Of a stretch of 64,000 bases of DNA, positions 28,904 through 44,032 are shown piece by piece. Each line of letters begins with the position of its first letter. Position 1 is the stretch's first letter. Under the pieces are notes generated by a model. That model searched no databases. It was not told the DNA's origin and worked only from the letters and a program-made list of their open reading frames with translations. The translations under genes were made by a program, and so were the position numbers. Source of the DNA: Spirochaetae bacterium HGW-Spirochaetae-2 (lineage in GTDB: Bacteria; Spirochaetota; Spirochaetia; Sphaerochaetales; Sphaerochaetaceae); NCBI GenBank assembly GCA_002839355.1, contig PGXW01000001.1:124001-188000 (forward strand). Reading direction: 5' to 3'.

Positions 28904-31900
28904 TCATGCCAATCTTTGTAGAGTTTCCAATATGAACAACGACTTGTCCTTCAACGAGACAGCATCGGTACGCAACGTAAGCACATTCATTCTCCGTTGG
29001 TCAATCCCTACTTTTCCGTTACCCAATCGTAGGAGTTCCATGACTTTATCGATAGCGATATCCTTCACCTTCGCAAATTCCACAGTGACCACTCCATTTC
29101 GTTCCTTCAGGTGGTGTATCGACAATTTGCGGCAGATGATCTTCAATTCTGCGATATACAGAAGGTTGACCACCACTTCAGGCATCGTACCGAACCGATC
29201 TTCCATCTCGGCAGTCAATGCCTGCAACTGTACATCACTGGAGATCGAGGCGATCTTTTTGTAGATATCGAATTTGATCGAGGGCTCGCTGATGTACGTA
29301 TCGGGAATAAATCCGGAATAATCGAGCTCAAGGAACACTTCCTTGCTCTCTTCGGCCGATCCGTCCTTCAACAATTCGGCGATCGCCTCATCGAGGATGC
29401 GCAAGTACATATCCAATCCGACCGAAGCCAGCTGTCCGCTTTGCTCACGTCCCAACAGATTTCCTGTCCCACGTATCTCCATATCCTTCATGGCTATCTT
29501 GAAACCACTTCCCAGTTCGGTATGTTCCGAAATGACCTTCAGACGCTTGACCGCGATTTCACTGATAGCACTCAATTCGGGGTAGAACAGATAGGCGTAG
29601 GCCTCCTGGTCACTCCGACCTACCCGCCCGCGCAACTGGTACAATTGAGACACCCCATAGCGGTCGGCCCGGTCGATTATGATGGTATTCACATTCGGAA
29701 TATCGATCCCGTTCTCTATTAACGTTGTGGATACCAACACCTGGATTCCCTGATGGATGAACCGTCGCATGATATCCTCGATCTCCTCGGGGTCCATCTG
29801 GCCATGGATCGCTTCAATCACAACTTCAGGCATATGCTTGGAAAGCATATGAACAACTTCCACGAGTGTATTGATGCGGTTGTGCAAGAAGAACACCTGA
29901 CCGCCACGGTTCAATTCGTACCTGATCGCATTGACAATGGTAGGAATATCGAATTCCTTGATGACGGTCTTGATCGGCCGCCGTTGGATCGGGGGTGTAG
30001 TCAAAAGGGACATGTCCCGGATTTTCAACAGTGACATGTAGAGAGTCCTCGGAATCGGTGTGGCCGACAGTGCGATCGAATCGATATTCGCCTTCAGCTC
30101 CTTCACCTTCTCCTTGTCCTTGACTCCAAACCGCTGTTCCTCATCGATGATAAGCAATCCCAGGTCCTTGAAGACCACATCCTTTTGGAGCAACCGATGT
30201 GTTCCCACCAGGATATCCACTTGCCCTTCCTTCAGCCTGTTCAAGATCTCCTTCTGGTGCTTTTTCACGATAATTCTGGAAATAACTTCAGCTTTGACTG
30301 GGAACTGGCCCAACCGCTGCAGCAATGTCTCGTAATGTTGTTCAGCTAGAATGGTCGTCGGGGCTAGGATCGCAACCTGCTTGCCCGCCATGACCGCCTT
30401 GAATGCGGCCCGAAGCGCTATTTCAGTCTTGCCGTATCCGACATCTCCACAAATGAGCCTGTCCATTACAATTGGACTTTCCATATCGTGCTTGATATCC
30501 TCGATACAGGTGAGCTGGTCCTCGGTTTCCTCGAATGGGAAGGAAGCTTCGAATTCGAGCTGCCAATCGGTGTCCTTGGGGTATGGATATCCCTTGCTGC
30601 TTTTCCTTCTCGCATACAGTTGGATCAATCTTCCGGCCAATTCCTCTGCGGACTTCCTGGCCTTGGCCTTTTTGTTTTCCCAACCTTGGCCGCCCAATTT
30701 GTCGAGCCTGGGTGTCCCACCCTCGCTTCCGATGTACCGTTGGATCAAGTTGGCCTGTTCAATGGGGACAAAAAGCGTTTCGTTGTCCGCATAGGCAATC
30801 TTGATATAATCCCGCTCTTTTCCCGACATGGTGATCCGATCGATCTTAAGGAATTTTCCGACACCATAGTTCATATGCACGACATGGTCGCCTTCGTTGA
30901 GGTCGACAAACGAATCGAGTGGAGAGGATTGTACCTTGTGCAGTGTCTTCACAACCTGCTTGCGCCTTCCGAATATCTCATGGTCGCAAATTGCCACCAA
31001 TTTCTGGCTGCTGATCGAAAATCCGCCACTGATCTCAAGGTCCAACACCTGCAGAGAGGCAAATTGACTGAGCATGTTGTTCAAACGTTTGCGCTGAAGG
31101 TCGGATCCTGCGAATATCACAACCTTGTACCCATTCCCCATCAATTGGGACAACTCTTCCTTCAACATCACAAAATTGCCGAAGAATGACCGGGGTCCAT
31201 CGACATCGAAAGCAAAGACGCCCTTTTGTTGCCCCCTCACCTCGATCAGTACTGTGGAACGCAGCCAAGTTTCGAAGAATTTCGGGTAATCGAACAGCAA
31301 TTCGGCCGGCTTTGGCGACATGCGGTCAATAAGGAACGCATCCCGATACAACGCCTTGGCTTCGACCATGAGGGAATGGAAAGAAGTCTCCAGACGTTCC
31401 ATCCCAAGAAAGAACACATAATCCTTTTCATGCAGGTAGGAGGAAATGGTGGAGGTCTCGATCTTCTGCTGTTCCTTCAGTATCGTTACATTGATATGCC
31501 CGAGTGTTTTGATCGTGTCCTGTGTCAATGGATCGAAGGAGGTTATCCTCTCGATGCGGTCCCAATCGGCATATATCCTTACCGGGTATGGGCTGTCATA
31601 GGGAAAAAAATCGACGACCTCACCGTGTATGGAGAATTCTCCCGGAACCGCGGTACTTGGGCTGCGGTAATATCCTCCGGCAGACAACGTGTTTGCGATT
31701 TTTGTCGAATCGAAGGTATCGCTTACCCGCAAATGCATCTCGGATGCTTGCAGGGACTCGAGGGAAACCACCGGCGAGACGAAAGCCCGCAGATGGGTCA
31801 CGACCATGCGTGTCGGATGCTCGATACAGGCTGCAAATGCCTTCAATTGCGAATATTCCCTGTCTGTTCCTTCCCAAGGACTATACAACAGCTTTCCATT

Positions 31901-35068: not shown

Positions 35069-35533
35069 ATGTTATGCCCTCATTGCGGTCATATGGATGA
35101 CAAAGTGCTTGAATCGCGGCAAAACAGTAGTGGTTCCACCATTCGTCGAAGAAGGGAATGCCTTGCGTGTGGGTACCGTTTTACTTCCTACGAACGCATT
35201 GAGGAAAAACCATTGATGGTTGTGAAGCGTGATGGCCGCCGTGAACCGTTCGATATCAAGAAAGTCGAGCGGGGCCTCAGGATAACTACCGAGAAACGCC
35301 ATATTGGACAAGAAACGATCGAGCAGGTATTGCAGGACATCGAGGACGAGGTTGTGCTCAAGGCAGGAGCCAAGCGCGAGATATCCTCGAGAAGTATTGG
35401 TGAAGTGGCTTTGAAAAAATTATACACCATAGACACCGTGGCCTATATCCGGTTTGCTTCGGTGTATAGGGCTTTCGACAATGTCGACCAGTTCATTGAG
35501 GAAATCGAAAGTATTACACACAAACTGAAATAG
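35069..35533 (+). CDS. nrdR: Transcriptional repressor NrdR
   Basis: 154 residues, the usual length. The N-terminal zinc ribbon has CPHCGH and CLACGYRF, followed by the ATP-cone domain beginning VVKRDGRREPFD. NrdR senses ATP/dATP and represses ribonucleotide reductase genes. AAGGAGC precedes ATG. It converges on the dGTPase gene with 6 bases between stops, pairing two dNTP-pool genes. Confidence 0.96.
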   Translation: MLCPHCGHMDDKVLESRQNSSGSTIRRRRECLACGYRFTSYERIEEKPLMVVKRDGRREPFDIKKVERGLRITTEKRHIGQETIEQVLQDIEDEVVLKAGAKREISSRSIGEVALKKLYTIDTVAYIRFASVYRAFDNVDQFIEEIESITHKLK

Positions 35534-35539
35534 ATCCGT

Positions 35540-36703
35540 TTACTTTACATCAAACCATTTTCCAGTAATCGATTGCTCGATCCTTTCGTTCAAATGGTCG
35601 GGCTTCAGTATTTCATTCGCACAGTCTAGACAAAAATTGTCGCTCATCCCAGCGACATAATCGAAGATCAACCTGTCTATGGAACCATCATGCTGCAGAT
35701 ATGGCTGGTGCATCTCCTTCAGATGCAATGCGAATCCACCAGCCAGCATGTTCTTTTCCTCCATATAGGACTTTTCATCAAATCCATACATATCGAACAA
35801 GCCCTGCAGATAATCCACTATCAATGTCAGCAGTCTTGAGAAATACTTGCTGTACCCTTCCAACATGGGAGACAGGTATATCGAACGATAATTGAAATCC
35901 TTCATCGCCAGTACGGCCTCGAAGATCGAATCCGAGAACGATATGCCCGTTTCGGGTCGTGAGGTGTCGATGATATCATTCACCAGGGTATTGATGATAC
36001 TGGCATTGGTTGTCCCCAACCTGGCGACAACTATCTCGGGTATCGAAGCGGGATCAATAATCGACAATCGGCAGGCATCCTCGTAATCCCTGCCAAGGTA
36101 TGCGATCTGGTCGGAGAACCGAACTACCGCAGCTTCCCAGGTCGCCGGAATTGCCTCGGCACGACTGGTCATTGACGAAAGGTCCTTCTCGATGAACCGG
36201 GGCATAACCGATTGTTCGAATCGTTCTCCATTATGGCATGCGATTCCATCGCGCACGGCATAGGTAAGATTCATTCCCTTGCCATGTTCCGCAAGAAAAT
36301 CGACAATCCTCAAGGAATTCAATTCGTGCTCGAAACCACTGAAACCTTTGCTTTTCATCAGGGAAGCCAATATCCGCTCACCGACATGACCGAATGGGGT
36401 ATGGCCCAAGTCGTGTCCCATTCCGATTGCCCACGCCAATTCGGTATCCAGCCCCAAGCCCCTGCAGATAGCCGAGGCTATAGAAGCCACATGCAGCACA
36501 TGCTCCATGCGGGTGCAAATATGGTCGTTGCTTGGTGCGAAGAACACTTGGGTCTTATGCTTCAGTCTCCTGAAAGGCGAGCTGTGGATAATAGCGGTGG
36601 TATCCCGGTAGAATTCGCCGCGCACATCGGTTGTCCTGCTATGTAGGCGATGCTGGAGGACTTCCGCTGACAATCCATTCTCGAATACTCGTTTTCTATC
36701 CAT
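35540..36703 (-). CDS. dgt: dGTP triphosphohydrolase (HD family)
   Basis: 387 residues. Cuts dNTPs, typically dGTP, to the nucleoside and triphosphate. HD motif in GMGHDLGHTPFGHVGE, preceded by the RRLKHKTQVF and RMEHVLHVA segments. The start at ATG 36703 has GGAGGGG upstream; the frame is open a further 56 codons without homology. Divergent from a small membrane protein gene with 55 bases between. Confidence 0.93.
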   Translation of the reverse strand: MDRKRVFENGLSAEVLQHRLHSRTTDVRGEFYRDTTAIIHSSPFRRLKHKTQVFFAPSNDHICTRMEHVLHVASIASAICRGLGLDTELAWAIGMGHDLGHTPFGHVGERILASLMKSKGFSGFEHELNSLRIVDFLAEHGKGMNLTYAVRDGIACHNGERFEQSVMPRFIEKDLSSMTSRAEAIPATWEAAVVRFSDQIAYLGRDYEDACRLSIIDPASIPEIVVARLGTTNASIINTLVNDIIDTSRPETGISFSDSIFEAVLAMKDFNYRSIYLSPMLEGYSKYFSRLLTLIVDYLQGLFDMYGFDEKSYMEEKNMLAGGFALHLKEMHQPYLQHDGSIDRLIFDYVAGMSDNFCLDCANEILKPDHLNERIEQSITGKWFDVK

Positions 36704-36758
36704 TTCATCCCCTCCAAACCAACGGCAATACTTCCCTATCGGCACCCTCCATGGTATC

Positions 36759-37256
36759 ATGTTCCATATGCTGATGCTACTGGTAGCTGTTTTCACCACA
36801 TTGCTCTGCTTCCTCTCCGCTGTCGCTTGTCTTCGGTTCATCGTGTCGAGACAGGGGTGGTTCTGGGTCATTCCCTTGGTGATATCCCTGACTTTCCTCT
36901 ATATCAGTATTAATCCCCTCTATCAGATAGCTACAGGTATGGTTTCGGGGACCTATCAAGTGGAGATAAGTCCAGACCGCAATATACGCGAGATCGTCCC
37001 ACTCGTGATCGTACTGTTATGGTACACCATGATCATCACATTTCGGTATGCCCTGAAAATGGTTGTCCCCGACAACAAGCACCTTATCGACACCATGAAG
37101 AACCTGAAGGAATCCGAATATATGCAACGCATTGAATTGAGGAAATTCCATAAGGCCTCGCGACGTCAAAGAAGACGTGAGATCAAAATAAAGCGTGAGC
37201 ATGCAGGCACCCGATATCCACAGAAATGGGTAGCATTGTTTGACGAAAACAGTTGA
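36759..37256 (+). CDS. Membrane protein of unknown function upstream of aroKC
   Basis: 165 residues. Three hydrophobic segments (about 3-25, 34-58 and 75-95) are followed by a basic cytoplasmic tail of about 65 residues with RRQRRREIKIKRE. No family recognised. The ribosome site is weak; an ATG three codons later is possible. Eight bases separate its stop from the aroKC start, so the two are probably cotranscribed. Confidence 0.6.
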   Translation: MFHMLMLLVAVFTTLLCFLSAVACLRFIVSRQGWFWVIPLVISLTFLYISINPLYQIATGMVSGTYQVEISPDRNIREIVPLVIVLLWYTMIITFRYALKMVVPDNKHLIDTMKNLKESEYMQRIELRKFHKASRRQRRREIKIKREHAGTRYPQKWVALFDENS

Positions 37257-37264
37257 GGAACTGC

Positions 37265-38794
37265 ATGGATATCTTGTTTTTGACAGGAATAAAACATTCG
37301 GGTAAAAGCAATGTAGGCCGCTCGGCCGTCGATTTGCTCAAAAGCTCGTTTGAAATAGATTTCACCGATGCCGATGATCTTGTCCAGGCATTGCTACCTT
37401 CGCAAACAGGCACACTTCGCGAATTCTATGCCCGTTGTGGGAAGACCGCCTTTATGGATCTTGAATTCCAGGCTGTTGAAAGATTCACGAGCAACTGTTC
37501 GGATACTTGGCATGTCTTGGCTACCGGTGGAGGAGTCTGTGACAACGAACCGGTTGTACAACTCATGAAAACAGCGGGAAAAATCATATATCTCGCGGTA
37601 GATGAACATGTCTTGTTCCGAAGGATCATGCGTGGAGGAATCCCTCCTTTCCTCTCTTCCGAGAACCCCGAACAATCCTTTCACACGCTGTTTGTTGAAA
37701 GGAATGCGCGATATAGGCAGGTTGCCGATTTTATGGTATCATTGTCCGATTGCCGATCTATTCAAGAAAATGCAGAAATCACCACGTTCGGCGAATCTCA
37801 TGGAGATGCGCTTGGTGTAGTAATCGATGGTCTCGAAAGCGGCTTCCCTATAGATATGGATCATCTTTCCCGACAAATGCAGCGGCGCCGTCCTGGGGGA
37901 AATCCCTTGGGCACCAAGCGTCAGGAACCTGATGCGATCGAGATAGTGTCAGGAATCTTTCAAGGCAAGACTACCGGTACCCCTATCGCGATTTTAATTC
38001 GAAACACCAACCAACGCTCGGGGGATTACGACGATATCTCGCGGTTGTATCGACCGGGACATGCGGACCATACATGGCAACAGAAATTCGGAATCCGGGA
38101 TTGGCGAGGTGGTGGACGTTCCAGTGGCAGGGAGACCGCGGCACGACTGGCAGCCGGGGCTATTGCGATGCAAGTCCTTTCACAGAAGGGAATCCATATC
38201 CAGGCATACACTATCCAAATCGGTACTGTGGTGGCCGAGGCAAGGGACTACTCCCTCATCGGCACAAACCGAGTGAGTGCACCCGATGCCGCTGCCGCGG
38301 TACGGATGGAAGAGCTGATAGAGAAGGTCCGCGAGGACAACGATAGTGTCGGTGGTATCATCGAATGTAGGATAACCGGGTTACCGGCAGGATTGGGTGA
38401 GCCTGTATTCGATAAAGTCGAGGCTCTTCTTGGTCATGCGATACTCTCCATCGGCGCGACAAAGGGTATTGAATTCGGCGATGGATTCTCCGTCGCCTCC
38501 CGTCTGGGTTCCGAAAACAACGACCAAATGGATTCCAATGGGTTTCTCTCCAACCATGCAGGTGGCATGAATGGAGGAATAACCAACGGAGACACCCTGC
38601 TTTTCCGGACTGCCGTCAAACCGACGGCCTCGATCGGCAAACCACAAAAGACCGTCGATATTGGAGGCGATGAGCGGACAATTGTCGTCGAAGGACGTCA
38701 TGATCCCTGTATCTGTGTCCGCGTTATTCCTGTGGTCGAGGCAATGGCTGCAATTACACTGTTGTCCTTATGGTATGAACAATATGGACGATAA
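37265..38794 (+). CDS. Shikimate kinase-chorismate synthase fusion
   Basis: 509 residues. Residues 1-170: shikimate kinase, with P-loop GIKHSGKS, FTDADD (shikimate-binding Asp), LATGGGV and the C-terminal ERNARYRQVADF. The usual FR of GExxFR reads FM (GKTAFMDLE), so one shikimate-contact arginine is absent. From about residue 177: chorismate synthase, with ITTFGESHG (active His), RPGHADHTW (second His), RDWRGGGRSSGRETA. The first ten or so residues of a normal chorismate synthase (GNTxGxLF) are missing and no such module is visible in other frames. ATG 37265 has GAGG upstream. The 3' end overlaps the XPB gene. Confidence 0.88.
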   Translation: MDILFLTGIKHSGKSNVGRSAVDLLKSSFEIDFTDADDLVQALLPSQTGTLREFYARCGKTAFMDLEFQAVERFTSNCSDTWHVLATGGGVCDNEPVVQLMKTAGKIIYLAVDEHVLFRRIMRGGIPPFLSSENPEQSFHTLFVERNARYRQVADFMVSLSDCRSIQENAEITTFGESHGDALGVVIDGLESGFPIDMDHLSRQMQRRRPGGNPLGTKRQEPDAIEIVSGIFQGKTTGTPIAILIRNTNQRSGDYDDISRLYRPGHADHTWQQKFGIRDWRGGGRSSGRETAARLAAGAIAMQVLSQKGIHIQAYTIQIGTVVAEARDYSLIGTNRVSAPDAAAAVRMEELIEKVREDNDSVGGIIECRITGLPAGLGEPVFDKVEALLGHAILSIGATKGIEFGDGFSVASRLGSENNDQMDSNGFLSNHAGGMNGGITNGDTLLFRTAVKPTASIGKPQKTVDIGGDERTIVVEGRHDPCICVRVIPVVEAMAAITLLSLWYEQYGR

Positions 38795-40442
38795 GCCCCT
38801 TATTATCCAAAGCGATCTCAGCATGATGCTTGACGTCCACTCTCCTGCGGCAGAAGATGCCCGCAACGACCTCATAGCCTTTGCCGAACTGGTCAAGTCC
38901 CCCGAACACGTGCACACCTATGCCATCTCGGCAATCAGTCTTTGGAATGCAGCTTCTGCCGGAATCAGTGTCGAGGAAGTACTCGGCCGTTTGGAAAAAT
39001 GGTCGCGGTACGCTTTGCCGGAGCCGGTGGTATTCCATATACGGGAAATCGGTGGCCGTTTCGGTTGTATCCAACTTTTACCGTATCCCGAAAATGACGA
39101 TGTCTACCTGTTGAAGATTTTCCATGATCGCTTTGTGCGGGAAATCATGGCTCGGAAGCAAATTGCAGCCATGCTTACACCCGTTCAAGAGGGATTTCTC
39201 ATCCCGCGGTACCAACGGGGCGAGTTGAAATTGCAGCTGATAAAGCTTAGGTTCCCTGTTGATGATCGGATTCCCTTGGAACACGGGGAGCCGGTTCCTG
39301 TAGCATTCCGCGAGACCTCTTCCAGAGGCGTTGACTTCGTGCTGCGGGATTATCAGAAGTTTGCCGCGGATTCGGTTCTCGGAAACGGAGGACCAGGTAC
39401 CGGTTACGGAACCATTGTCCTTCCTTGCGGCTCTGGCAAGACAATTGTAGGTATGGAAATCCTTACCCGTCTGTCAACGCGGACTTTGATTCTTACCACC
39501 AATGTCGCCGCAGTCCACCAATGGATCGCGGAAATCTCCGACAAATTGGATATCGATGCCTCGCAGATTGGAGAATACTCGGGTGTACGAAAGGAGATCA
39601 GACCGATCACTGTCTGCACGTACCAAGTTTTGACTTGGCGTCCGGACAAGGATGCCGACTTCCCCCATATGCGTGTGCTCAAGGAAGGTAATTGGGGTCT
39701 TATCATCTATGATGAAGTACATATGTTGCCTGCTCCCGTTTTCAAGATAACCGCCGAACTCCAGGCGGTCCACCGTGTTGGGCTCACTGCCACTCTCATA
39801 CGGGAAGACCACAGGGAAGATGAAGTCTTCTCACTGGTCGGTCCGAAGCGCTACGATGTTCCATGGAGCGAACTGGAGAGCCAAGGGTGGATAGCGGAGG
39901 CGGAATGCACTGAGATCCGCGTACCGTTGCCACGAAATCTGGAGATCTCATATGCTATTGGTAGCAAACGGGAAAAGTACCGTATTGCGAGTGAAAATCC
40001 AGAGAAGATGCAAATTGTCAAGGATCTCATCGACAACCATCCCGAGGACTTCATCCTGGTCATTGGACAATACCTGGACCAATTGAAGATCATATCCAAG
40101 GAGTTGGGTGCACCGCTTATCACCGGTGCGACGGGAAATGCGCGCCGTGATGAACTATATCGACTGTTCAGGGAAGGTAAGGAACGGATTCTGGTTGTAT
40201 CGAAGGTAGCGAACTTCGCAATCGATCTTCCAGACGCTTCTGTTGCGATCCAGGTGTCGGGCACCTTCGGATCCAGACAGGAGGAAGCCCAAAGGCTTGG
40301 TCGTATCCTTAGACCCAAAAAGCAAAGTTCACATTTCTATTCGTTGGTTACACGTTATTCTTCCGAAGAGGAGTTCAGTGCAAATCGTCAAAAATTCTTG
40401 ACCGAACAAGGATACAATTATCATGTGGAGGTTTGGGAATGA
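38784..40442 (+). CDS. XPB/ERCC3-type SF2 DNA helicase
   Basis: 552 residues. It closely resembles mycobacterial XPB as I recall it: N-terminus PLIIQSD, APEHVHTY-like damage-recognition region, Walker A LPCGSGKT near residue 214-221, DEVH box near 307, the RED motif in TATLIRED, and FGSRQEEAQRLGRILRP in the second RecA domain. XPB helicases unwind DNA in repair and, in eukaryotes, transcription initiation. ATG 38784 aligns with the homologue start and overlaps aroKC by 11 bases; ATG 38775 is an alternative. Its stop overlaps the next start (ATGA). Confidence 0.92.
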   Translation: MDDKPLIIQSDLSMMLDVHSPAAEDARNDLIAFAELVKSPEHVHTYAISAISLWNAASAGISVEEVLGRLEKWSRYALPEPVVFHIREIGGRFGCIQLLPYPENDDVYLLKIFHDRFVREIMARKQIAAMLTPVQEGFLIPRYQRGELKLQLIKLRFPVDDRIPLEHGEPVPVAFRETSSRGVDFVLRDYQKFAADSVLGNGGPGTGYGTIVLPCGSGKTIVGMEILTRLSTRTLILTTNVAAVHQWIAEISDKLDIDASQIGEYSGVRKEIRPITVCTYQVLTWRPDKDADFPHMRVLKEGNWGLIIYDEVHMLPAPVFKITAELQAVHRVGLTATLIREDHREDEVFSLVGPKRYDVPWSELESQGWIAEAECTEIRVPLPRNLEISYAIGSKREKYRIASENPEKMQIVKDLIDNHPEDFILVIGQYLDQLKIISKELGAPLITGATGNARRDELYRLFREGKERILVVSKVANFAIDLPDASVAIQVSGTFGSRQEEAQRLGRILRPKKQSSHFYSLVTRYSSEEEFSANRQKFLTEQGYNYHVEVWE

Positions 40443-42460
40443 AAGACATGCGCTCACAGGTGTATATATGGGAACGCTCGTTGGCAATCTTGCCCGACAC
40501 GATATTCCTGGACATCGTAAGGAATTTTATCGGTAAGGTTCCTACACCCTTCCACAAGCCGTTGCTCACCAAAAAGTTGACTACGCTCTTCTCGACCGAC
40601 GAATTCCTTGCCCGAGTCGAAGCAAGCCTTTCTCCAACCGACAGACAGTTGTTGAGCGGCGCCTATGTATTGGGCTCACCTACCCAAGACGAACTATGTT
40701 CCATCTTCAGCGATTCGATATCCTATGCTACATTGCAGCAGAGTGTGGTGAATCTTGAGGAACGACTGTTGCTGGTTCCGAATCCGGATACATTCGAACA
40801 CTCTGCCGGATTGATGATCAATCCCCTTGTTGTCGACAGGCTCCTTGCATCCTCGTTGTCGCTGGAAGATATATTTGTCCCCTCATCGGATGTGGATACA
40901 CCGCACTACCGGTTCCTGGGGGGTGATCCCCGAATCGTACGGGCATTGCTGAGTCTCCATATCCATACGATGCTCGGGTCGAGGGAAAAAAGCGAAAAGG
41001 CTCTGACCACCAAACACATCCAGAATGTATTCGGTCAGGACGATACTCCATTCATTGAACGGGTGCTGTTGTACAACCGCATGCTTTTTGGAGAAAAGGT
41101 ACTCATAGAGCAAGGCCGGTCAACCCGTATCGATATCAATCGGGCACAACTAGTGCTATCCAAGGATCCTCAGGAATTGCAGTTGTTGCTGTTCCAGACC
41201 GCATTCGCTTCCATGCAACCCCAAACTCCCAAGATTGCCAAAGACCTACCCTTTCGCGCATTCTTCACCATATTGTCAACGTTGCTCGATACCGTACCGG
41301 TCCATCATCACAAAGGGTTGAAAACAGCCTGTCTGATGGCGTCCTATAGGAGCAGGCTTCCCATTGCCGACATGGAGGAATTCCTTGCCCTCCTTTCTAC
41401 CGTAGGGCTCGCACCGATGCAGAAACCCAAAGGCAATCACACGAACCAGACCCATCTGCAACCTACAATCGATAGCGACCTCACCATTTCTTTCACCGAA
41501 GATGTCCCGGTGATCGAAAACAAGGATTTGCTGCATTGTCTTGCGTTTGTGCGAAAAGTGGATGTCGTCACTTCATACGAAGTCAATAAAGCCACGATCA
41601 TGCGTGCTTTTGACCTTGGACTCACTGTCGAGGAGATACTCGAATATCTTGAAGGTCTTACCCAATCGATTCCTCAAGGACTTCAAAACCTTATTGGACA
41701 TTGGAAAGATGAATTCTCATCGATCGTCATCTATGATGGTATCCTGGTGAAGGCAAATGAACGTCTCAGCCGAATAATCGAGGCTCTTCCCACCTTGCAA
41801 CCTTTCCTGATTTCAAGGATTGCCGATGGCATGTATCTGTTTTCCAGGAGTTCGGAAGCGCAATGGCGAGAAATCCTATCGGCTACTGGAATCGGACTGT
41901 TGCCGAGAAGTATCACCGATGCGGCGCACCACTCGACCTCCTCCATCGAATCGTCGACTGTACATACCGATATGGAAATGCTTCGTCCAATACAGGAACC
42001 GATTCGGCTGTTGGCGGTAAGACGCCCCGGGAAAGACAATCCCACAGCGTTGGAATTCCAAAAGGAATTGAAGAAAGCCATCCTAGCCAAAGCCTCCAAC
42101 AAGGGGGAACAAGAGGAAATGCTGGCCCGATTGGAACGAAAATTGATCCTGGTACCCTCACAAATCAGCGCGGTCCAAGGACGGACCCAGACGATGCAAG
42201 CGAGCGGTTTCGATTTTCAGGGAAAAATCAATTTATGCAAGGCGGCAGTGAATTCGACCGTAGAGCTTCTGGAACTGCACATTTTGGATAATGACGGCAA
42301 CTCACAGATTTTACTTACAGAAGCCAAGGAGTTGATCAACTCGACCAAAGATGCATCGATACGTGTTCTGGTTCTTCCCGATGGCGAGGAAAAAGTCCTC
42401 CCAATCGAGAAGATATTCAAGGTCAGAAAGCTCCGTCGTTCAATCTTCTTCCAAATGTAG
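40439..42460 (+). CDS. Helicase-associated (Helicase_C_3-like) partner of XPB
   Basis: 673 residues, no Walker motifs, so not a helicase itself. Residues about 345-425 (TISFTEDVPVIENKDLLHCL to EYLEGLTQSIPQGLQNL) match the 'XPB/Ssl2-like N-terminal'/Helicase_C_3 domain. The last 85 residues form a beta-rich segment with a WYL-like look, ending LPIEKIFKVRKL. The first half is helical with repeated winged-helix-like units. GGAGG precedes ATG 40439, which overlaps the XPB stop as ATGA, so the proteins are made together and likely form a complex. Ends 21 bases inside the convergent aroDE gene. Confidence 0.75.
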   Translation: MKDMRSQVYIWERSLAILPDTIFLDIVRNFIGKVPTPFHKPLLTKKLTTLFSTDEFLARVEASLSPTDRQLLSGAYVLGSPTQDELCSIFSDSISYATLQQSVVNLEERLLLVPNPDTFEHSAGLMINPLVVDRLLASSLSLEDIFVPSSDVDTPHYRFLGGDPRIVRALLSLHIHTMLGSREKSEKALTTKHIQNVFGQDDTPFIERVLLYNRMLFGEKVLIEQGRSTRIDINRAQLVLSKDPQELQLLLFQTAFASMQPQTPKIAKDLPFRAFFTILSTLLDTVPVHHHKGLKTACLMASYRSRLPIADMEEFLALLSTVGLAPMQKPKGNHTNQTHLQPTIDSDLTISFTEDVPVIENKDLLHCLAFVRKVDVVTSYEVNKATIMRAFDLGLTVEEILEYLEGLTQSIPQGLQNLIGHWKDEFSSIVIYDGILVKANERLSRIIEALPTLQPFLISRIADGMYLFSRSSEAQWREILSATGIGLLPRSITDAAHHSTSSIESSTVHTDMEMLRPIQEPIRLLAVRRPGKDNPTALEFQKELKKAILAKASNKGEQEEMLARLERKLILVPSQISAVQGRTQTMQASGFDFQGKINLCKAAVNSTVELLELHILDNDGNSQILLTEAKELINSTKDASIRVLVLPDGEEKVLPIEKIFKVRKLRRSIFFQM

Positions 42461-43897
42461 GGTCTGTTCCAACCGTTTGGGATAATGGTATCCGGTGAAC
42501 GATTCGAATTGGAGCTTGCCTTGACGGATAAGCATATCGATGCCAAACAGTAGCTTGCACCCCGATTCCCGGGCCCGTGCCAGCATTTTCGTATACTTGG
42601 GCCGATACACCAGTTCGTACACTGTCTGTTGCTTGTTGAACTTAAAATCGGGAATCGGATCGTTATCGGAATCTGGAACCATTCCCACCGAGGTCGTCTG
42701 TACGATCAAGTCCACATGCTCATATTTCGTCGCATTGTCCAGACTATCGAAAGCCGCCATGGTCTCGAGGGCAAGGTTCCTCGCCCGATCGAGATTCCTG
42801 TTGATTATCGTTACTTTACAACCGTGGTTGCGCAGTGCCCATACGACCGAGCGGGCTGCACCTCCGGCCCCGATAACCAGGGCACTTTGAATATTCTTGT
42901 TGTCGATTTCCACCAACAAGGGATCCACAAACCCATAATAATCGGTATTCGTACCCATCCAGAGGTTTTTAGCCCTTACAACCGTATTGCAGCTGCCTAT
43001 CTGCTTCACCTCGCGGGTGATCTTGCCAAGATATGGAAGGACATTCTGCTTGTGGGGTACGGTAACCGAAACACCTGAAATCTTGATCATTTCAGCCAGG
43101 ATAAAAAAGGAACGTACCGAATCCACGTGGAACGGCACATAGATGGCATTGAAATTTATCCCCTTGAAACCAGGGTTCTGGATTTCAGGGGAGAAGGAAT
43201 GCAATACCGGATTCCCAATGACACCGAAGATATGGGTCCGGTCGTCAACCGTATCGGCACGGTACAGTTCCTTCATTTTCTGTGCTGAGATTTGACCGGG
43301 TGCAACCGGGGTGTCGGCACAGTAGGTGAGCATGGACCCTACCCTTTTGTAAAGAATGCGTGACGGAAAACCGAAATCACCCATACCAAGCACAATCTTT
43401 TCCCCAACAGCAGCCAGTTCGGTCTTCACCCGGAACAACGTGATCAAATCGAGCACGGATTGTGGAGTGACCGCCATTTTCGGAATATCACCCTTGGCTG
43501 CGATCTTGGAAATCCTATGGAAAATATCGGAGGGCATACCAGTAAAATCATGCCTCGAACGTATGATCCTGACCTTACGTTCCCGAGCCTTCAGTTCCGC
43601 TGCGGAACGTTTGACATCGTCCTCTATATCCACATACGCGAAATTGCCGTCCAAGCAGGATTCCAGAAGCGCTCCCCGTGATTTTTCCGAACCGACGTAC
43701 TTCCCACCATCGGATTGCCTTCTACAGGTGAGAATTACGGGCAGATCAACCATGTCGGGAAATTTGGACGCAAGACTCCGGGAGGATTCATGCAACAGGT
43801 CGATACGCAATTCAACCAAATCCACATATTCACGATTGCGCTTGAACTGGGATATATTCTCTTCGATTGTACTACCAGAAAGAACCAAACAAATCAC
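42440..43897 (-). CDS. 3-Dehydroquinate dehydratase (type I)-shikimate dehydrogenase fusion
   Basis: 485 residues. Residues 1-220: type I dehydroquinase with IIRSRHDF (catalytic His) and DIPKMAV (Schiff-base Lys). Residues 225-485: AroE with GNPVLHSFSPE, TVPHK (catalytic Lys), NTDYYGF (Asp) and the NADP loop VIGAGGAARS. It converts dehydroquinate to shikimate in one polypeptide, as in plants. GTG 43897 gives the typical MICLVL start with GGAGG upstream, preferred over ATG seven codons earlier. Convergent 21-base overlap with the XPB partner gene. Confidence 0.92.
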   Translation of the reverse strand: MICLVLSGSTIEENISQFKRNREYVDLVELRIDLLHESSRSLASKFPDMVDLPVILTCRRQSDGGKYVGSEKSRGALLESCLDGNFAYVDIEDDVKRSAAELKARERKVRIIRSRHDFTGMPSDIFHRISKIAAKGDIPKMAVTPQSVLDLITLFRVKTELAAVGEKIVLGMGDFGFPSRILYKRVGSMLTYCADTPVAPGQISAQKMKELYRADTVDDRTHIFGVIGNPVLHSFSPEIQNPGFKGINFNAIYVPFHVDSVRSFFILAEMIKISGVSVTVPHKQNVLPYLGKITREVKQIGSCNTVVRAKNLWMGTNTDYYGFVDPLLVEIDNKNIQSALVIGAGGAARSVVWALRNHGCKVTIINRNLDRARNLALETMAAFDSLDNATKYEHVDLIVQTTSVGMVPDSDNDPIPDFKFNKQQTVYELVYRPKYTKMLARARESGCKLLFGIDMLIRQGKLQFESFTGYHYPKRLEQTLHLEED

Positions 43898-44032
43898 CGG
43901 AGAGCCTCCATACCCCATTCAAAGTATTGACGCCAAGAAGGACTCCTTGCATCCCGATGCGCCGTTATGGTAACTTTCATAATACTCGTAACAACACGAA
44001 TCTGCAACACCTTACGATTATATGGGGAGTAC

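Follow-up and report, generated by a model that had tools for sequence, protein, structure and literature searches.

The locus described here raises the question of what a bacterial XPB helicase does with the non-catalytic protein that is encoded directly after it. In human TFIIH the N-terminal domain (NTD) of XPB binds the clutch domain of p52 (PMC6422496), which recruits and stimulates the helicase (PMC6422496, PMC7708078); the XPB substitution F99S weakens this binding, and the XPB-p52 unit is affected in human disease (PMC7708078). For bacteria, a 2012 paper on XPB stated that no p52 had been found (PMC3353954), and a 2026 review still describes the function of the bacterial enzyme as elusive (PMC13024598). 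From analysis of a window of 64,000 nucleotides (the whole stretch of spirochaetal DNA that was studied) and of homologous loci, we consider it likely that the two genes encode a pared-down prokaryotic equivalent of the XPB-p52 module in TFIIH, with a partner that is p52/Tfb2-like. No earlier report linking this partner family to p52 was found in the open-access papers searched.

The two reading frames overlap as ATGA, as the initial annotation had proposed (Table 1), and this arrangement is likely to couple translation of the partner to that of XPB; in homologous loci the overlaps or gaps between the two genes are likewise short. The helicase passes the NCBIfam equivalog for 'DNA repair helicase XPB', and human TFIIH XPB aligns with it from end to end (4-548), NTD included (E 1e-75), whereas for archaeal XPBs of the Bax1-associated type the alignment is confined to the helicase core. 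The sole significant Pfam match of the partner is Helicase_C_3 at residues 344-460 (E 4.9e-10), which confirms the predicted XPB/Ssl2 N-terminal-like domain; the Pfam search identified no helicase core, consistent with a non-catalytic protein, and no NCBIfam model matched. The archaeal XPB-Bax1 pair is similar in that XPB has a dedicated partner (PMC13024598), but the partner there is a nuclease, bound to the thumb and HD2, and no nuclease family of the kind that would mark a Bax1-type partner was found here in Pfam, NCBIfam or PADLOC, so that the suggestion of a partner other than Bax1 also holds.

Table 1. Positions, within the window, of the XPB gene, the partner gene and their domains.
Feature	Coordinates	Strand	Evidence
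XPB/ERCC3-type SF2 helicase, 552 aa	38784..40442	+	NF045503, 798.7 bits vs cut-off 610
XPB N-terminal domain (Helicase_C_3), XPB residues 6-131	38799..39176	+	Pfam PF13625, E 1.7e-26
XPB RecA1 and RecA2 motor domains, residues 185-339 and 364-548	39336..40427	+	ResIII, ERCC3_RAD25_C
ATGA overlap of XPB stop (TGA) and partner start (ATG)	40439..40442	+	Sequence
p52/Tfb2-like XPB partner, 673 aa, with C-terminal WYL domain	40439..42460	+	PDB profile search, AlphaFold2 and fold search, hhalign
N-terminal body of the partner (residues 1-335), helical and winged-helix-like, with a match to the N-terminal region of p52	40439..41443	+	Structural alignment, hhalign
Partner clutch domain, residues 338-429	41450..41725	+	Structural alignment, Helicase_C_3
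Partner residues 430-487, aligned with the C-terminal domain (CTD) of p52, which binds p8	41726..41899	+	Structural alignment
Partner C-terminal WYL domain, residues 591-668, not in p52	42209..42442	+	Structural alignment

A family profile of 45 prokaryotic partners, containing no eukaryotic sequence, was searched against all PDB sequences. Tfb2/p52 chains ranked first (E 9.9e-11 to 2.7e-7; yeast 9.9e-11, 6trs 1.8e-8, human 2.5e-7), ahead of the XPB NTD (E 7e-4), and a spirochaete-only profile again placed p52/Tfb2 before the XPB NTD. The p52 match covers profile positions 208-420 and thus extends N-terminal of the clutch (E 1e-10), and comparison by hhalign with human and yeast p52, using sequences taken from PDB chains, gave E 1.5e-10 and 3e-11 over about 350 columns, beginning at p52 column 17 or 47 (alignments A3 and A1, respectively), at an identity of only 13-14%. 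A P412-x9-W422 motif, present family-wide, has the spacing of LPPT..QIRLW in p52. When a profile of two eukaryotic p52 sequences was in turn searched against the 4,922 ORFs from the loci, all seven matches were partners and none was XPB, at weak E-values of 5e-4 to 0.06; two of the seven fall in the p52 N-terminal region. Five of the 45 family members match Pfam Tfb2 (PF03849) at E <= 0.01 (best 6e-4) and the window partner does not match it; since the curated cut-off was passed by no member examined (L111 scored 19.1 bits against the 34.5 required), we name the partner p52-like and not a member of Tfb2. Across 197 family rows the mean occupancy is 97% for clutch columns and 92% for CTD columns, whereas the N-terminal and WYL parts are covered in only about half, which identifies the clutch-CTD unit as the core of the family. 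Pfam WYL was detected in three of the 45 members (best E 4.6e-4). The profile also matches, at about residues 583-657 of the partner, the C-terminus of two solved chains described as 'AAA ATPase' (8bns, E 5e-4; 8bnv, 4e-3), which is perhaps another WYL-like end.

The AlphaFold2 model of the partner (pLDDT 85.7, pTM 0.82) extends this comparison to the fold. All 17 Foldseek matches under E 0.001 are p52/Tfb2 chains, and they span nearly all of p52. In the model the clutch superposes on the human XPB NTD with Z 11.9 (rmsd 2.2 A, 87 residues), and the clutch and CTD together (338-483) on p52 303-458 with Z 10.7 (rmsd 7.1); a similar stretch (337-486) aligns with p52 332-492 of 6trs (Z 10.0, rmsd 8.4). 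Over residues 20-487 the model matches human p52 17-462 with Z 11.3, at an rmsd of about 21 A over 253 residues that arises because the domains are shifted relative to each other, so that a p52-like arrangement of the N-terminal domains is only a possibility. The C-terminal segment 591-668 superposes on the WYL domain of PafBC (Z 11.2, rmsd 2.0 A, 77 residues) and also resembles those of BrxR, ssDNA-bound DriD and ssDNA-bound CapW, with Z of about 10-11 for this group. As modelled, winged helices, XPB-NTD-like clutch and p52-type CTD follow one another in the order found in p52/Tfb2 (GTF2H4), which likewise accompanies an XPB/Ssl2 with an NTD, and the bacterial protein differs in the WYL domain then added. 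Two features that had been read from the sequence, winged-helix-like repeats towards the N-terminus and a WYL-like look of the C-terminus, are confirmed by the model and the fold search.

These data would also fit a more limited relationship, in which partner and p52 have only the clutch in common, each having copied it separately from the XPB NTD, and the remainder of the partner is an unrelated helical protein that would still bind XPB through its clutch. The clutch is indeed the strongest local match and is itself matched by the XPB NTD, the superposition of the whole body is poor, and the hhalign identity is low. A direct origin from XPB, however, predicts XPB as the best match, and p52 is far better (1e-10 vs 7e-4); in addition, the sequence match reaches N-terminal of the clutch in both profile search and hhalign, the segment that follows the clutch is p52-like as well, and the N-terminal region of p52 is represented in the reverse search. 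We accordingly regard a clutch-only resemblance as unlikely, and favour relationship to p52 over most of the length of the protein.

The distribution of the two genes bears on whether they share a function. Within a sample of 61 genomes of close relatives, XPB scored above the cut-off in 50 and was absent from 11; the partner is present in all 50 (48 by single-sequence search, the other two, in which it lies beside XPB, by profile) and in none of the 11. In 46 of the 50 it adjoins XPB on the same strand and in the same order, the two genes overlapping slightly or standing a short distance apart; in G046, G047, G057 and G059 it is found elsewhere in the genome. In a broader draw of 256 Spirochaetota genomes, 198 of which contain XPB, the partner is not beside the helicase in 72 of the 100 XPB stretches fetched, mostly from other classes, and for this reason we use co-occurrence, and do not rely on adjacency as the sole argument. 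Where genomes have no neighbouring partner in the XPB stretch, the partner was located elsewhere, nearly always unlinked, in 38 of 40, and it is absent from 26 of 27 genomes without XPB, the remaining one having a partner truncated by the end of its contig. The two exceptions among the 40 (G188 and G093; family f38, genus g78) contain XPB and gave only the match to its own NTD, so that this genus may have lost the partner. Rare adjacency of homologues had been named in advance as evidence against a complex; the genes are indeed usually unlinked in other Spirochaetota classes, but co-occurrence holds there nonetheless, and a partner that is kept or lost with XPB even when unlinked is stronger evidence for a shared job than adjacency alone. 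The proposal of a distinct bacterial XPB complex is partly supported: the functional tie stands, a physical complex is a prediction, and the partner is no unrelated novelty, being p52/Tfb2-like over most of its length.

Co-occurrence also bears on an alternative that we consider improbable, namely that the partner regulates transcription as a damage-sensing WYL protein and has nothing more than an operon in common with XPB. The ATGA coupling would be compatible with such a role, as would the combination of winged-helix-like regions with a real WYL domain like those of PafBC, DriD and BrxR. Against it, the partner accompanies XPB one-to-one also where the genes are unlinked and is lost with it, and distant members of the family keep clutch and CTD without clear WYL coverage. 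PafBC, DriD, CapW and BrxR resemble the partner in bearing the WYL fold at the C-terminus, and differ in that here it ends an XPB-partner protein.

Gene order has been rearranged more than once, as the partner lies upstream of XPB, or divergent from it, in L099, L102, L114, L131 and L132. Two partner-like proteins occur in one genome or side by side in L120 and in the genomes G062, G063 and G076, suggesting paralogues. No natural fusion of XPB and partner was seen among the loci, which contain only in-frame neighbours split by a stop.

In the window the pair lies inside an aro gene neighbourhood, as fusion genes of this pathway flank it on both sides: a 513-aa ORF (37253-38794, +) joins shikimate kinase (16-164) to chorismate synthase (175-506), and a convergent gene (42440-43918, -) that overlaps the partner 3' end by ~20 bases joins type I 3-dehydroquinase to shikimate dehydrogenase. 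Because the first 11 bases of XPB lie within the kinase-synthase ORF, the pair is probably co-transcribed with it; promoter-like sites are not commoner in the region than expected by chance. Further upstream (35069-36871), NrdR (+) stands beside an HD-domain dNTPase-like gene (-), both pointing to nucleotide pool control. An anti-phage defence module, a role that had also been suggested, is very improbable and gained no support, since WYL domains in the defence regulators BrxR and CapW and a weak PADLOC match of the partner to mad4 (E 0.0038; the partner's best PADLOC match stands at E 0.004) are set against a core chromosomal position between aro genes, the wide presence of XPB in Spirochaetota, the lack of any defence neighbours seen and best PADLOC matches of XPB that are partial and lie in helicase regions. 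The gene for the transcription-repair coupling factor Mfd lies in the same window (about 29105-31456, -), and UvrB, like Mfd, is encoded in the same genome as the pair, indicating that the pair adds to bacterial excision repair and does not replace it. Of the other TFIIH core subunits, p8 (PF06331) and p34 (PF03850) were searched for, and neither has a match in the genome at E <= 1, which indicates a two-protein module and not TFIIH; the module further differs from TFIIH in that the partner stands below the Pfam Tfb2 cut-off and that its binding to XPB is a prediction.

With respect to mechanism, the partner probably works like p52. The XPB NTD and the partner clutch are homologous by profile comparison (E 9.8e-9) and both halves of the TFIIH dimer are present, so that the same dimer is the simplest inference; the clutch, with its XPB NTD fold, would most likely form a pseudo-symmetric dimer with the XPB NTD, on the pattern of p52 in TFIIH. 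Such pairing would anchor XPB, keep hold of its second motor domain and act on the ATPase as a switch or a limiter. The N-terminal winged helices could form an arm that docks on DNA or on another protein, and the WYL domain, judging from its predicted fold, may sense a nucleic-acid ligand and signal to the motor that DNA is open or damaged; ssDNA is the probable ligand and our leading guess, because solved structures of DriD and CapW are bound to ssDNA. The pair would then open DNA for repair beside UvrABC and Mfd. To examine the interface, the in-frame XPB and partner genes of a Treponema locus (L077), split by a stop, were co-folded as a read-through, yielding pTM 0.54 with a poorly folded RecA1, owing to the shallow alignment. 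Coevolution was analysed by DCA on 144 XPB-partner pairs (Meff 133), a data set that is underpowered and in which the intra-protein signal is weak. On three measures, true pairing scored above every one of 18 full scrambles and, with small margins, above each of 18 near-neighbour scrambles; against near-neighbour swaps, z on the top-50 mean was 4.1 for NTD x clutch and 5.6 for NTD x CTD, compared with 2.6 for RecA2 x clutch, 1.9 for RecA1 x clutch and 1.5 for NTD x 190-330 as control blocks. Given the few permutations and the shared phylogeny, this moderate excess of the NTD blocks is suggestive only.

A scan of 84,980 species for XPB returned 80 loci, and the partner is present in 51 of these stretches, from Spirochaetota, Deltaproteobacteria, Gemmatimonadota, Latescibacterota, Clostridia, Chloroflexota, Planctomycetota, SAR324, Holophagae, Thorarchaeota and one methanosarcinal archaeon; at least 20 of 25 genomes whose XPB locus showed none contain a separate partner. 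The neighbours of XPB annotated as 'helicase-associated domain-containing protein' (Helicase_C_3, PF13625) in Actinomyces, Deinococcus and Paenibacillus plasmid records belong to the same family as the partner (profile E 7.6e-19, 1.7e-24 and 3e-33); the literature searched assigns the protein so named no function and no link to p52. Overall, the range of the family includes Actinomycetota, Deinococcota, Bacillota and Thorarchaeota. Mycobacterial Rv0861c/Rv0862c is a candidate homologous pair. XPB was not found in viral contigs.

A p52-like partner this widespread would explain why bacterial XPB has retained its NTD. It predicts that XPB measured alone is without its regulator, makes the puzzling role of the bacterial enzyme directly testable, and, for the XPB-p52 unit that human disease affects, provides a model made of two proteins. 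It also bears on the origin of TFIIH: tentatively, and with somewhat more doubt than confidence, we suggest that bacteria and some archaea, Thorarchaeota included, carry a two-protein DNA-opening motor, that the XPB-p52 core predates eukaryotes, that TFIIH was built from this motor or its ancestor, and that the WYL domain senses ssDNA in the version described here. Among Asgard archaea the partner occurs in nine of 59 genomes, a patchy distribution that may reflect transfer, and all nine carriers contain a second, weaker match of the XPB-NTD kind, in most cases on the same strand at a distance of a few kb. In the Thorarchaeota locus L117 (5986-11126), a putative clamp-loader-like AAA gene, as read from its sequence, lies antisense between XPB and the p52-like gene.
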